From contig NZ_JARKPQ010000200.1 of assembly GCF_029975155.1 (NCBI RefSeq), forward strand, positions 62,001 through 126,000: a stretch of DNA of 64,000 nt, in the 5' to 3' direction. Below the pieces are notes generated by a model. It ran no database searches, was not told the origin of the DNA, and saw only the letters and a list, made by a program, of their open reading frames with translations. The stretch is from Propionicimonas sp. (GTDB taxonomy: Bacteria > Actinomycetota > Actinomycetes > Propionibacteriales > Propionibacteriaceae). Each line of letters begins with the position of its first letter. Within the stretch, counting starts at the first letter, position 1. Of the stretch, positions 58,629-64,000 are shown piece after piece. Both the position numbers and the translations under genes were made by a program.

Positions 58629-60023
58629 GTGACCGAAGCACAATACGACGTGGTCGTCATCGGTGCGGGCGCAATTGGCTCAGCCGTGGCCAGGGACCTC
58701 GCCGGCACAAGCAATCGAGTGGCTCTCATTGAGGCCAGAGGTGACGTCTGCGAGGGAACGTCCAAGGCGAATACTGCACTTCTCTGCACGGGATTCGACG
58801 CCAAACCGAACTCACTGGAGTCCAGGCTCTACTCTCGCGGCTACGAGCTCATGATGAAGTATTGTGAGGAAACGGGCATTGCCGTGGACAGATGTGGCGG
58901 AGTCCTCGTTGCCTGGGATGAGGAGCAGGCCGCGACACTTCCACAGTTGCAGGCGGAGGCCGAACTCAACGGATACATGGAGTCGCGGATTCTCAGCTCG
59001 AGCGAGGTGTACGCGCTGCTACCCGAACTCGGGCACGGCGTGACCGCAGGTCTGGAAGTGCCGGGCGAGTCGATCATCGATCCGTGGTCGGTTCCGCTCG
59101 CGTGCGCGACCGATGCAGTCAGCCGCGGAGCCGATCTCCATCTGAACTGTCGTGTCGAGTCGATTCAGGTCGGTGCCGAGGTGACCACCCTGTCCACCTC
59201 CTCAGGCGATATCACCACGCGCTGGGTGGTGAACTCGGCAGGACTCGGTGGTGACGTCATCGACAGGTTCTACGGCTACGACCGCATTCATCTGTTCCCC
59301 AGGCGCGGTGAACTGCTCGTCTTCGACAAGCTCTCCGCGTCCATCGCGCCGAAGATCGTGCTCGCTGTTCCGTCCAAGGTCACCAAGGGCGTCCTCATCT
59401 CGCCCACAGTCTTCGGCAACGTGATGTTGGGCCCAAATGCGGAGATCATCGAAGACCGGGAGGACACGTCGACGACCCGCGACGGCTTTGACTTCATCCT
59501 TGAGAAGGGTCGGCGTGTCTTCCCCCAGCTCATGGAGGAAGAGGTCACCGCGGCCTATGCGGGCCTGCGGGCCGGTCACGACCAGAAGGACTGCCTGGTC
59601 GAGCGCGACTCGGCTCAGCGATACGTCATCACCGCCGCCTTCAGGGCCGGCCTCACCTTCGCGCTCTCCGTCGCGGAACTCGTACACCAACTGCTCGGTG
59701 AGTCTGATCTGGACATGAGCTACCGACCGTCGCTCCCAGCGCCGGTGAGGGTGCCACCGCTGGGCGCCAAGCAGTTGCGTCCGTATGAGGACGATGTGTT
59801 GATCGCTCAGGATTCTGCGTATGGGGAGGTGGTGTGTTTCTGTGAGCGGGTCACGAGGGGTGAGATCCGCGACGCCTGCCACAGCCTGATCCCGGCCCGT
59901 GACCAGGGGGGGCTCCGGCGGCGGACCCGGGTCATGAACGGCCGCTGCCAGGGGTTCTTCTGCGGGGCGGCGGTGAAGGCCATCCTCGACGAGGCTCTGG
60001 CCAGTAAGGACGACGCGCGATGA
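58629..60023 (+). CDS. GlpA-like FAD oxidoreductase with C-terminal BFD 2Fe-2S domain
   Basis: 464 aa. N-terminal FAD site DVVVIGAGAIGSAVARDLAG, the DAO-type fold characteristic of glycerol-3-phosphate dehydrogenase and L-2-hydroxyglutarate oxidase (SKANTALLCTGFDAKPNSLESRLYSRGYELM, PGESIIDPWSVPLACATDA, YAGLRAGHDQKDCLVE). The C-terminal 65 residues are a bacterioferritin-associated-ferredoxin-like domain with four Cys (VVCFCERVTRGEI and GRCQGFFCG). This matches the GlpA layout. GTG 58629 follows AGAGAAGGAAAG. The likely substrate is a 2-hydroxy- or phospho-polyol. The next gene overlaps by ATGA. Confidence 0.9.
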   Translation: MTEAQYDVVVIGAGAIGSAVARDLAGTSNRVALIEARGDVCEGTSKANTALLCTGFDAKPNSLESRLYSRGYELMMKYCEETGIAVDRCGGVLVAWDEEQAATLPQLQAEAELNGYMESRILSSSEVYALLPELGHGVTAGLEVPGESIIDPWSVPLACATDAVSRGADLHLNCRVESIQVGAEVTTLSTSSGDITTRWVVNSAGLGGDVIDRFYGYDRIHLFPRRGELLVFDKLSASIAPKIVLAVPSKVTKGVLISPTVFGNVMLGPNAEIIEDREDTSTTRDGFDFILEKGRRVFPQLMEEEVTAAYAGLRAGHDQKDCLVERDSAQRYVITAAFRAGLTFALSVAELVHQLLGESDLDMSYRPSLPAPVRVPPLGAKQLRPYEDDVLIAQDSAYGEVVCFCERVTRGEIRDACHSLIPARDQGGLRRRTRVMNGRCQGFFCGAAVKAILDEALASKDDAR

Positions 60024-61273
60024 GCCAGCCCACCAAGACCCCCGCGGTCGCTGTCGTCGGTGCCGGACCCTCGGGCCTGCAGGCTGCAGCCGACCTGGCC
60101 AGGACGCTCAGGGGCGACGTGCTCGTCCTCGACCGCGAGACCCAGCCCGGCGGCATTCCCCGCCACTGCTTCCACTCCGGCTACGGCATCAAGGACCTGC
60201 ACCGGTTCATCAGCGGCCCTCACTATGCCGGGATCCTCACCGATCGGGCCGTGGCCGCCGGCGCCGACATCGTCACCAGCGCGATGGTCACCGGGTGGAC
60301 GCCTGAAGGCTCGCTCGAGATCACCTCCCCCGGCGGACGGTTCACCGTTGCGGCGAAGGCGACGATCCTGGCCACGGGTGCGCGGGAGCGCCCCCGCACC
60401 GCCCGGCGCATTCCGGGTGACCGTCCGGCGGGGGTGTACACCACCGGGCAGCTGCAGAACCTCGTCCACCTGCACCACCAGAAGGTCGGCACCCGCGCGG
60501 TGATCGTCGGCTCGGAGCTGGTCAGCTGGTCGGCGGCGCTCACCCTGCGGCACGCCGGCTGCCGCACCGTACTGATGACCACCGAGTACCCGGCACCGGA
60601 CGTGTACCGGCTGTTCTCCACCTTTGGCCGCGTCTGGTTCCGCACCACGGTGGCCACCCGCACCAGGGTCGTGCGAGTCATCGGTCGCGGCCGGGTGTCG
60701 GGGGTCGAGATCGAGGACACCCTCAATGGCGCCCGGACGATCGTGGACTGCGACACGGTGGTCTTCACCGGTGACTGGATTCCCGACTACGAACTGGCCC
60801 GTTCTGCCGGCATCGCACTCGATCCGCACACCCTGGGGCCGGCCGTCGACACGCGGTTGCGGACCGAGCGGGACGGCGTCTTCGCCATCGGCAACCTCGT
60901 CCACCCGGTCGACACGGCCGACGGGGCCGCCCTGGACGGGGCGCACGTCGCGCCGCATGTGCTGCGGTACCTCGACGGTCAGGCGCCGGCTCGGCCCGGC
61001 GTGGAGCTGGCACCAGGCCGGGGCTTCCGGTGGGTGTCGCCGTCCCGATTCCACCCGGGCGACACCGGGCCGGCCCGAGGGTTCCTCCTCATGTGGCCTG
61101 ACGAGTTCCACAGCCGGCCGACCGTGGTCGCCAGGCAGGCCGGGCACGAGATCGGGCGGATCAGGACCTGGTGGCCCGCCGCTCCCGGCCGCGTGTTCCG
61201 CATCCCGTATCTGCTGCTGGCCGAGGCGAACCAGGCCAAGGGGCCAGTCACCGTCGAGATCGCGAGCAGCTGA
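60020..61273 (+). CDS. FAD-dependent pyridine-nucleotide-disulfide-type oxidoreductase
   Basis: 417 aa. AVVGAGPSGLQAAADLARTL at the N-terminus, GGIPRHCFHSGYGIKDLHRFISGPHYA, ATGARERPRTARRIPGDRPAG, and a C-terminal GVFAIGNLVHPVDTADGAALDGAHVAPHV typical of enzymes paired with GlpA-like or HcnC/sarcosine-oxidase-like subunits. ATG 60020 overlaps the previous stop (ATGA). It may act with the GlpA-like protein as a two-subunit dehydrogenase passing electrons through the Fe-S domain. There is no GlpC-like membrane subunit next to it. Confidence 0.88.
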   Translation: MSQPTKTPAVAVVGAGPSGLQAAADLARTLRGDVLVLDRETQPGGIPRHCFHSGYGIKDLHRFISGPHYAGILTDRAVAAGADIVTSAMVTGWTPEGSLEITSPGGRFTVAAKATILATGARERPRTARRIPGDRPAGVYTTGQLQNLVHLHHQKVGTRAVIVGSELVSWSAALTLRHAGCRTVLMTTEYPAPDVYRLFSTFGRVWFRTTVATRTRVVRVIGRGRVSGVEIEDTLNGARTIVDCDTVVFTGDWIPDYELARSAGIALDPHTLGPAVDTRLRTERDGVFAIGNLVHPVDTADGAALDGAHVAPHVLRYLDGQAPARPGVELAPGRGFRWVSPSRFHPGDTGPARGFLLMWPDEFHSRPTVVARQAGHEIGRIRTWWPAAPGRVFRIPYLLLAEANQAKGPVTVEIASS

Positions 61274-61583
61274 ACTCCCAACCCCAGTCGGTCCGGTCCA
61301 GGTTATCGAGTTGGCCCGCGAGTCGTTGCGGGCCAACAGAGCCCAGTCCGGGCCGATGGCCCAGGGATCCAAGTAACCGATGACGCGACTCAGCTGTCAC
61401 CCATGTCGCGACTCATCACAGAGGTGGAGCCTGAGGTACCCAACTTGAACCTCATGCGCCGGCTGGATCGCCTTGACTCCGCGTGGATTCAGGGATCTAC
61501 GACCATTGAGGCGCCGCCGCCATTCGTGTTCGACGAGGGTTTCGACGTCATCGAGAACCCTAGTAAACGTAGTAGAACCCCTT

Positions 61584-61712
61584 TTGACTGAGAAGGAAGT
61601 AGAAGCTATTCGAACCGCCCGGGCGGGCGGCGAGAGCGTCACGGTGATCGCGGAGCGATTTGGTGTGAGCCGGATGACGGTGTGGCAGAAGACACGAAAC
61701 TCGACCACCTGA
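61584..61712 (+). pseudogene. Recombinase-type HTH remnant
   Basis: LTEKEVEAIRTARAGGESVTVIAERFGVSRMTVWQKTRN reads like the C-terminal helix-turn-helix of a serine resolvase. No catalytic domain precedes it in any frame, and the region 61403-61583 carries only an overlapping 62-codon frame (from 61403, MSRLITEVEPEVPN...) of doubtful coding value. The HTH fragment may start at TTG 61584 or be a dead remnant. Direct repeats containing CGCGACTCA lie at about 61383 and 61405. The rest of 61274-61816 holds no clear gene. Confidence 0.45.
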
Positions 61713-61781
61713 TACCCAGGCACGCGGCTTGGCCCGAATCCTCAGTCTCCTGAGCTCGCCGTACTGCACACTAAGTACACA

Positions 61782-61810
61782 AGTCCACAAAGTCCACAAT
61801 CTGCTACACT
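61782..61810 (+). promoter_or_regulatory. Leaderless promoter with tandem repeats
   Basis: AGTCCACAA occurs twice in tandem (61782-61790, 61791-61799) in the -35 region, followed by TACACT (61805-61810), which ends 6 nt before ATG 61817. The 9-bp repeats could be operator half-sites. Confidence 0.55.
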
Positions 61811-61816
61811 AGTGGT

Positions 61817-64000
61817 ATGAGCAGTGCAGATGAGCTCGGGCCGTTCCTAAACGTTCGCGAAACCGCGAAGCTTCTTGGGGTACATGAGAACACGGTCAGG
61901 AACTGGGTGACGGCGGGCACCCTCGTATCGGCTCGTGTGCCTGGCTCGAAGCAGCATCGCTTTGCCAGAGAAGAGGTACTGCGTCTTCAGAAGGAACGCG
62001 GCTCAATCGCGTCGTCGGTTGCGCCCACGCTCCGCACGGACGGGCCTGAACTCATCACCGCCAACGAGCTGAACATCTGGGCTGCTCGCGATGATGCTAA
62101 GACCGCCTTTCCCGAGTTGATGCGTCGTCTTCTCGCGGTGACTCCAGGGATCAGCAATCTGCAAGTCCGTGCTCACGAAGGTGTGGCTGCATCTGGTTGG
62201 GACGGCACCGCCACGTCTGCAGGTAGCGCGCACCTTCCGGTCGGCGAACTGCGCTTCGAGTTCGGCACGGACGCCAACCCCAAAGGAAAGGCTCAGAGCG
62301 ACTACGACAAGCGAGTGCTCGCCCTCCCCGCTGACGCGAGTTCAGTCTTTGTCTTCGCCACGCCGAGAAACTGGGCTAGCGGTAGCGCGTGGGCTTCCGA
62401 TCGCGCAGCCGAGAAGAAGTTCTCTGACGTGAAGGCCATCGATGCGCACACTCTGGAGGGTTGGCTCCAAGAATTACCACCCGTACATCGTTGGATCTCG
62501 GAGCGATTGGGCTACCGACCGCGAGACGCACAGACCATCGAACGGTGGTGGCAGGCTTTTCAGGGTCGCACGACGGTGGCGCTTCCGGCTGACTTCTTCA
62601 CGGCTGGACGCACCGCTGAGGCCGACGAATTGCGTGCAACCCTTACTGCTGCAGGATCCGGCGATGAGATCGTGGCTATTCAAGCGCCGTGGCGCGATGA
62701 GGCCCTTGCCTTCATGTTCGCCGCCTTGGCTGCGCAGAACAACCTTCTGTACCGGGCCATTGTTGTCACCGACAGCGCCGCCTGGCAGCGGCTGACCGAA
62801 TCGCGGTCTCCTCTGATTCTCATTCCGTTGTTTTCCGATGCGCCCGGCCTCGCGGCCGCCGTCGACAACGGACATCGGGTGATCTTGATCGCCGAGCCCG
62901 GCGACATCATTCGAAACACCAAGAAGATTGAGCTCCGCAAGGTCGACCGCGCAACCGCTCGCGAGGCGCTGAAGGCTGTCGTGTCCGACTCGAAAAAGGC
63001 CCAAGCGATGGTGGCCCTCGCGCGTCGCAGTTTGCCCGCGCTCGTTCGTTCGATCGCACGCGAGCCACGCTTCCGAGCCCCAGAGTGGGTCACCAATACC
63101 GATCAAGCCGCTATCCTCGCACCGCTCGTTCTGGTGGGTTCGTGGACGAGCGCTGAAGGTGACTTCGCAGTGATCGAAAGGCTGACCGGACGATCACGCG
63201 ACGATATCGATCGCCTTCTGAAAAGTCTCGCCGGCCGTGCGGATGCACCGTTCGTTCGTTCGGGCGGCACCTGGCGTGTCACCTCGCCGACAGAGGCTGC
63301 TCTTCTCCTCCTGCCGACGCTCACTGATGGTGAACTAGCGAAGTGGGCCGAGGTTGTCGCAGATGTCCTGTTGACACCGGACCCCTATCAGGGGATGGAT
63401 GCCGTCGCTCGTCTGACCGCGAGCGCCCAAGGCATCAACCCGACCCATTCAGAGACGCTCAGGAAAGGTGTGGCGGACGGACTAGCGCTCGCCGCCGCGA
63501 GCGACGTCGAGCTTCCCGCTGACCTAGCCATGCAGGGGCGGGTCAGTCGGCTCGTTCACGATCTACTTCAAGCTGCAAACGCCGACGACACAGGAACGAC
63601 CTGGGCTCGACTGGCCAGTGTCCTGCCCAGCTTGGCGGAAGCCGCCCCGGAGGTATTTCAGGATGCGGTTGAACTCGACTCGGACCGCACCGACCCGATT
63701 CTTCGCACGATGTTCCAAGACAGCGGCGCGGACACTCTTTTCGGACCATCGTCGCCACACCCCAACTTGCTATGGGCACTCGAGACGCTGTGCTGGTCGC
63801 CGACCTATTTCGGTCGGGCGGCAGCGCTTCTTGGAAGGCTGTCCGCACTGGATCCCGGTGGTCGGTTAAGCAATCGTCCGATCGAGAGCCTGCAGAATGT
63901 CGCCGCGGGCTGGTTGCCTCAGAGCGGCGCGAGCGTCGACGACAAACTCGCCGTCATCGCGCGTCTCATGCAGCGCGAACCCGATGTCGGCTGGAAGCTT
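61817..64000 (+). CDS. Large HTH - nuclease-like - NTPase-like protein (3' end outside window)
   Basis: Open from ATG 61817 to the window edge (728 residues seen). Residues about 9-55 are an excisionase/MerR-type HTH (FLNVRETAKLLGVHENTVRNW). Residues 78-225 look like a restriction-endonuclease fold: NIWAARDDAKTAFPELMRRLL, GWDGT, GELRFEFGTDANPKGKAQSDYDKR (possible PD-(D/E)XK acidic/Lys residues), VFVFATPRNWA, then DAHTLEGWL. From about 255 a P-loop-like NTPase region follows (VAIQAPWRDEALAFMFAALAAQ) without a proper Walker A, then IPLFSDAPGLAAA and long helical repeats. I recognise no named family. Lower GC than the core genome and next to a recombinase remnant. Confidence 0.75.
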   Translation, partial: MSSADELGPFLNVRETAKLLGVHENTVRNWVTAGTLVSARVPGSKQHRFAREEVLRLQKERGSIASSVAPTLRTDGPELITANELNIWAARDDAKTAFPELMRRLLAVTPGISNLQVRAHEGVAASGWDGTATSAGSAHLPVGELRFEFGTDANPKGKAQSDYDKRVLALPADASSVFVFATPRNWASGSAWASDRAAEKKFSDVKAIDAHTLEGWLQELPPVHRWISERLGYRPRDAQTIERWWQAFQGRTTVALPADFFTAGRTAEADELRATLTAAGSGDEIVAIQAPWRDEALAFMFAALAAQNNLLYRAIVVTDSAAWQRLTESRSPLILIPLFSDAPGLAAAVDNGHRVILIAEPGDIIRNTKKIELRKVDRATAREALKAVVSDSKKAQAMVALARRSLPALVRSIAREPRFRAPEWVTNTDQAAILAPLVLVGSWTSAEGDFAVIERLTGRSRDDIDRLLKSLAGRADAPFVRSGGTWRVTSPTEAALLLLPTLTDGELAKWAEVVADVLLTPDPYQGMDAVARLTASAQGINPTHSETLRKGVADGLALAAASDVELPADLAMQGRVSRLVHDLLQAANADDTGTTWARLASVLPSLAEAAPEVFQDAVELDSDRTDPILRTMFQDSGADTLFGPSSPHPNLLWALETLCWSPTYFGRAAALLGRLSALDPGGRLSNRPIESLQNVAAGWLPQSGASVDDKLAVIARLMQREPDVGWKL

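Follow-up and report, generated by a model that had tools for sequence, protein, structure and literature searches.

At the right edge of a 64,000-nucleotide stretch of a Propionicimonas sp. genome (contig NZ_JARKPQ010000200.1, positions 62,001 to 126,000; hereafter the window) lies the beginning of a giant gene, which the window truncates at codon 728. Working from the letters of the window only, the original prediction had proposed it as a candidate defence gene and had noted a helix-turn-helix (HTH), a nuclease-like block, a P-loop-less NTPase-like block and helical repeats in one chain. Reading the contig on past position 64000, as had been suggested, completed the gene to 1,320 codons, and all four blocks were confirmed in the chain order HTH, predicted PD-(D/E)XK-type nuclease, AAA+/STAND-like domain without a P-loop, and HEAT-like solenoid. 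L-numbers below denote retrieved loci; L002 is the own-genome stretch that continues past the window (L002 position + 55999 = window position), and the full gene occupies L002 5818-9780. The features of the gene within the window, with residue numbers of its protein, are as follows.

61817..64000, + strand: giant gene, codons 1-728 of 1320, with the stop at window-equivalent position 65779, outside the window
61844..61999, + strand: HTH, residues 10-61, HTH_17, excisionase/BldC-like (Pfam HTH_17, 6.6e-10)
62051..62521, + strand: PD-(D/E)XK-type nuclease domain, residues 79-235, with D129/E148/K158 (element order in the predicted model; invariant residues)
62564..63079, + strand: AAA+/STAND-like domain without a P-loop, residues 250-421 (motif scan, Foldseek, aligned block)
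63095..64000, + strand: beginning of the region that aligns with GapS6b (residues 427-1306), for the most part HEAT-like solenoid
63098..63280, + strand: winged-helix-like segment, residues 428-488, suggested by helix and strand order in the predicted model

Beyond the HTH, the window protein passes no Pfam or NCBIfam cut-off, and PADLOC gives no match even with E up to 1 allowed, so that surveys with these libraries would miss the family; a literature search returned no description of it among the matches listed.

The original prediction had made its case depend on a nuclease fold, and the predicted model has a nuclease-type arrangement, with the alpha-beta-beta-beta-alpha-beta core order typical of PD-(D/E)XK nucleases. 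D129, E148 and K158 are invariant in 20 of 20 aligned members, across four phyla. Set against the D...(D/E)-x-K spacing of the active site, K158 sits 10 residues after E148 (20/20); a shifted lysine is known in this fold. The Foldseek list includes MspJI, FokI and EcoT38I, at E 0.05-0.14 only and with the part of the chain aligned not given. Searched by itself, the block had no match among PDB profiles (the best being ribosomal proteins, E 0.3), in Pfam, or, by hhalign, to the Avs2 nuclease. It is predicted to cut nucleic acid.

The central block is predicted to resemble a nucleotide switch but lacks its usual signature. A motif scan found the Walker A motif in 0 of 18 members, and inspection of the aligned block of 20 by eye revealed no P-loop. 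The P-loop is also missing in members with an XRE-type HTH and in members with no HTH at all, and the HTH thus did not simply replace an ATP switch. The best Foldseek matches of the predicted model are Avs5 and Avs4; against PDB profiles the best rows for the NTPase block were designed TIM barrels over a short stretch, which we took as chance. In predicted models, Avs4, Avs5 and Avs2 share with the window protein the order of effector, AAA+/STAND-like core and C-terminal helical repeats, whereas the window protein lacks Walker A and a PADLOC Avs match and has a fused HTH. Membership of Avs by sequence was rejected, because PADLOC and NCBIfam scans of the window protein, with E up to 1 admitted, yielded none of the Avs models. 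Judged by sequence and Walker motif, the protein resembles an Avs/NLR receptor yet stands outside Avs. The passages of PMC12931631 on Avs5 describe immunity that depends on the Walker motifs, with Walker A essential; here, signalling may need no ATP.

The solenoid connects the protein to a named system by homology. The DNA of a relative from Buttiauxella matches 14 of 5,426 Escherichia coli genomes, 7 over most of its length, and in one of these a relative follows a gene annotated gapS6a within a prophage, P2-like as judged by its neighbours. The partner scores 136 bits against the NCBI model antiphage_GapS6a (cut-off 90), and the relative itself shares 25.8% identity with the window protein across 902 alignment columns, which span residues 427-1306 of the latter (E 1.4e-73). 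We take this relative, whose record reads hypothetical protein, to be GapS6b. NCBI labels gapS6a antiphage, and the GAPS6 pair is said to protect against phage, reportedly a 2024 finding of Mahata et al. The C-terminal two thirds of the window protein are therefore homologous to GapS6b, whereas GapS6b has 930 residues without nuclease, NTPase-like or HTH blocks and has a separate HetE-N partner. Pfam and NCBIfam found no HetE-N/GapS6a partner in the locus among its five large proteins, nor did Pfam among four adjoining short frames; the window protein has the arm of GapS6b without the partner protein of GAPS6. Where the original prediction could match no named system, the solenoid adds a link to GapS6b.

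The same solenoid also stands behind a different, unclassified N-terminal domain in an E. coli EC96-type form (L052 7546-11088) and on a Shewanella plasmid (L047 6164-9727). For the EC96-type N-terminus nothing was found in the PDB below E 0.08 and nothing in Pfam; the idea that it is a Cap4/DUF4297-like nuclease is unsupported. Together with GapS6b, these forms show one sensor-like arm combined with various N-terminal parts, as in STAND receptors. A PADLOC scan of seven proteins gave weak matches of two relatives to PD-lambda-4 protein A (L029, 9.5e-5; L043, 5.2e-4), located in the solenoid and nearly colinear; the window protein itself had none. A search for the PD-lambda-4 family gave weak matches in 3 of 4 plasmids with relatives against 0 of 14 control genomes. 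A passage of one review (PMC10952713) lists PD-lambda-4 with a P-loop NTPase, and the term 'lambda-4' was not found in the main text of the original paper (PMC9519451).

At the other end of the chain, the HTH passes the NCBIfam model TIGR01764 excise (31.5 bits, cut-off 28.8) and scores 24.9 bits on the curated BldC model, below its cut-off of 77. Two features lie immediately upstream of the gene.

61783..61799, + strand: predicted operator, two exact tandem GTCCACAA units with a 9-bp period
61805..61810, + strand: -10-like hexamer TACACT, 6 nt before the ATG, leaderless

The repeat GTCCACAA-A-GTCCACAA is single-copy in its own 5.0-Mb genome at up to 2 mismatches (reversed control, 0). Allowing up to 4 mismatches of 16, it stands at exactly -34 in 13 of 17 HTH_17-bearing loci and within 31-43 nt of the start in 15 of them (L015 and L016 fail), a set that contains the near-copies L002/L004, L003/L013, L008/L009 and L012/L014; operator-like sites elsewhere in the same loci number 30 in 617,428 positions. 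Among 13 fresh loci, both with an in-frame HTH (L082 and L075) carry the operator, with 1 and 2 mismatches, and all 11 without one lack it, their best sites having 4-7 mismatches (L083 and L086 are broken genes). A TAnnnT hexamer lies exactly 6 nt upstream of the start in 14 of the 17, which leaves no space for a ribosome-binding site and is in line with the leaderless promoter that had been proposed; a consensus scan for the hexamer's promoter was negative.

Relatives with an XRE-type HTH have instead a palindrome, TGANNTCA, 18-33 nt before the start in 8 of 10 cases (absent from L103 and L042), against a background of 0.03 per 90 nt; this set includes the kin groups L025/L046 and L040/L101/L102, and the start of L041 was chosen by us. 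No shared promoter motif was seen in the HigA-like HTH class (L029, L044 and L045). The motif therefore switches with the HTH class, from the GTCCACAA tandem with HTH_17 to the TGANNTCA palindrome with the XRE type, and what the original prediction called an effector fused to its own apparent DNA-binding autoregulator becomes a specific prediction, in which the HTH would repress its own gene. A passage of PMC5859096 describes BldC, a MerR-like winged HTH, as binding 9-bp direct repeats head to tail. The window protein is like BldC in its weak model match and in the 9-bp direct repeat of its predicted operator; it is unlike it in that BldC stands alone as a protein of 68 residues and has AATTXXXX(C) repeats, whereas here the HTH belongs to an effector of 1,320 residues, with AGTCCACAA as its repeat. 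On these grounds a head-to-tail array on the operator is predicted.

In an unrooted tree of the solenoid (37 rows, without L080, L083, L086 and L087, removed by a length filter, the duplicates L084 and L085, and near-copies such as L004-L006), the members with each class of HTH (MerR/HTH_17, XRE and HigA-like) fall into a single group with good support, and HTH-less members lie between these groups; this implies at least two HTH fusions, three being likely.

The family is sparse and patchy. A scan of genome contigs gave 19 loci, of which 14 (L003-L016) match the whole protein, L016 over the first two thirds and L013 in pieces; L017 ends at a contig edge, and the other 4 match the HTH or little more. 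A tblastn search with the post-HTH part found 22 plasmid records, including rhizobia, Shewanella, Cupriavidus and Adhaeribacter. Counting the own genome each time, surveys returned 11 of 391 genomes in the order, 6 of 394 in the class and 3 of 296 in the phylum. Four of five scans of viral contigs found no relative; in the fifth, six short stretches matched the HTH end, over residues 10-125 in the longest case; phage records yielded one weak match, to an unannotated record, and a viral fold library nothing at E <= 0.001.

The gene opens a larger element, whose left boundary falls within the window.

61435..61782, strand not assigned: left end of the mobile element (12.3 kb in all), where L002 5501-5710 is a resolvase HTH_7 remnant (29.8 bits)

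The original prediction had likewise placed a recombinase remnant beside the gene. L002 5436-17761 is 93.6% identical over 12,330 bp to a stretch of Tessaracoccus caeni, with unrelated flanks. The giant gene is followed by an Avs2 gene of 1,389 residues (PADLOC, 882 bits; solved Avs2 9o4e, E 2e-86; NCBIfam Avs2, 558 bits, below the cut-off of 1000) and then by AbiEi, AbiEii, a serine recombinase frame whose Resolvase domain is missing its initial 45 positions, and a tRNA-Ala gene. The T. caeni counterpart also terminates at a tRNA-Ala gene, and the shared 12.3 kb between unrelated flanks, ending there in both genomes, marks a mobile element. A terminator and promoter scan between the giant gene and Avs2 found nothing. 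L003, L006 and L013 share only 4.04-4.10 kb with L002, from the operator (L002 5782-5784) to 46-96 bp past the stop; in seven loci compared, ungapped identity to L002 upstream of -40 nt is near chance. Read from these sequence boundaries, the gene seems also to travel alone, as a unit that begins at the operator and ends shortly after the stop codon. The copy in Microbacterium elymi (L013 10001-13967) has several broken frames despite about 95% identity to intact copies. Next to the element on its left, at window 58629-61273, two FAD-type oxidoreductase genes and, beyond them, a DeoR-like regulator, all assigned by eye, form a metabolic cluster that looks unrelated.

Housekeeping contexts alone, which the original prediction had named as the setting that would count against it, are not what the relatives occupy: they are mobile and often beside defence genes, though not in every locus. 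AbiE adjoins L040, L101 and L102, abortive infection and SIR2 proteins lie near L027, and L047 is closely preceded by superinfection exclusion protein B and a protein of the Abi family. L007 contains the Hachiman protein HamB, L085 the DISARM proteins DrmD and DrmMI, and L081 DpdE (8 proteins scanned, 5 without a match at 1e-25). Around other plasmid relatives, among them L025, L026 and L043, the annotated stretch names no defence gene.

We compared 136 focal open reading frames (ORFs), predicted with our own caller from 13 loci (3 of 139 dropped for size), with 122 from 9 control regions (3 of 12 regions and 32 of 154 ORFs dropped for size), considering the best 25 families of each; L084 and L085 represent genes already in L024 and L023, and L074 (the L004 locus) and control L088 were excluded. 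The focal ORFs matched 56 families at 1e-25, the best 25 including DISARM, DpdE, type IIG, type IV restriction and RmrA, with the DISARM, type IIG and helicase-type rows stemming from two L085 proteins and the DpdE row from L081. The controls matched 43, with PD-T4-6, C3a189, mad6, MkoA, DEDDh and PDC-S48 among the best 25, which we judge to be common-type kinases, nucleases and helicases. The comparison, which is coarse and not a statistical test, favours a defence context.

Several further neighbours were seen. A Gabija pair (GajA and GajB) lies at L005 18647-22242 in Pseudoclavibacter helvolus, directly past Avs2 and the family gene. The PADLOC candidate PDC-S53 adjoins the family gene at L012 16071-18818 (1246 bits), and a neighbour at L014 14005-16803 begins like that protein, a possible recurrent pairing. 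The HTH-less relative L023/L085 stands beside an ImmA/IrrE-type peptidase gene and DISARM DrmD and DrmMI; a PIN-like gene picked by eye beside L023 was dropped, having no Pfam match. On Rhizobium plasmids, large hypothetical proteins directly follow the family gene (L103 7838-11683 and L102 8179-11676) and are possible partners.

We consider it fairly probable that this single gene encodes an anti-phage sensor-effector with control over its own expression. Chain order, the invariant D-E-K residues, the missing P-loop, the operator footprint, GapS6b homology and mobility are read from sequence; defence, whether abortive or direct, would be the function. The predicted nuclease-type fold and the mobile, often defence-linked relatives support the original prediction of a defence gene, with protection itself inferred. 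In the proposed mechanism, the N-terminal HTH would bind the tandem 9-bp operator over the leaderless promoter and hold the level low, as the footprint suggests; the solenoid would sense an infection product; the P-loop-less core would relay the change without an ATP switch; and the nuclease, with its invariant residues, would cut nucleic acid and stop the infection. As a unit that runs from the operator to shortly after the stop codon, the gene would move between genomes, at times within larger defence elements. More tentatively, and with somewhat less than even credence, we picture a receptor family that lost nucleotide binding and came under DNA control, acquiring a different HTH with a matching operator at least twice, probably three times; it would sense its own level at its own promoter, the window form perhaps assembling head to tail, and GAPS6 would be a later offshoot in which a separate HetE-N protein replaced the nuclease and dead-NTPase part. 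Two observations weigh slightly against these views: three separate fusions are likely but not forced, and 5 of the 9 neighbours picked by eye for the scan that found Gabija, HamB and PDC-S53 had no match.

Because regulator and effector share one chain, the HTH could be a built-in lock, as in toxin-antitoxin pairs, with the nuclease inactive on the operator and armed by loss of the DNA. In keeping with this, two HTH-less relatives have separate genes of regulator type upstream: an HTH_3 protein and an ImmA/IrrE peptidase at L028 4926-6980 (Adhaeribacter plasmid), where a gene annotated as a PDDEXK nuclease also precedes the relative, and an ImmA/IrrE peptidase at L023; Peptidase_M78 is above cut-off in both, the spr1629 repressor/antitoxin model weak. 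We nevertheless find a lock unlikely, since HTH-less relatives keep the same nuclease and do not need one, and a single operator cannot hold many molecules. The fusion of a DNA-binding domain to a nuclease would also suit DNA-guided restriction, in which the HTH finds 9-bp repeats on plasmids or phage genomes that enter the cell, for the nuclease to cut, and one self-site per genome would limit self-cutting; but that site is at a fixed promoter position, so the host's own gene would be cut, and the other HTH class has a different promoter motif, which makes this explanation very unlikely. Slightly less room still is left for a large transcription regulator with an inactive, structural nuclease-like domain and no role in defence: many plasmid relatives are publicly annotated 'helix-turn-helix transcriptional regulator', but D-E-K is invariant across four phyla and the distribution is mobile, patchy and often defence-linked. 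Slightest of all is our credence in a partner or regulator of Avs2, whose gene is the neighbour of the family gene in L002, L004 and L005 and runs in the same direction. The other long-flank loci, some of which end early, have no Avs2 match, and relative to L002 the gene block of L005 is 94.4% identical and its separate Avs2 block 88.8%; the partnership was rejected on these two grounds.

The window protein is thus probably an undescribed sensor-effector, probably anti-phage, with self-controlled expression. As a defence effector that may repress its own gene at a defined, predicted operator of 17 bp, it makes a clean test case, and because Avs5 requires its Walker motifs and this family shows none, it lets one test directly if signalling by a STAND-like receptor can do without nucleotide. 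The family connects Avs/NLR-like receptors, GAPS6, PD-(D/E)XK effectors and the autoregulators of defence genes, which are usually studied separately.
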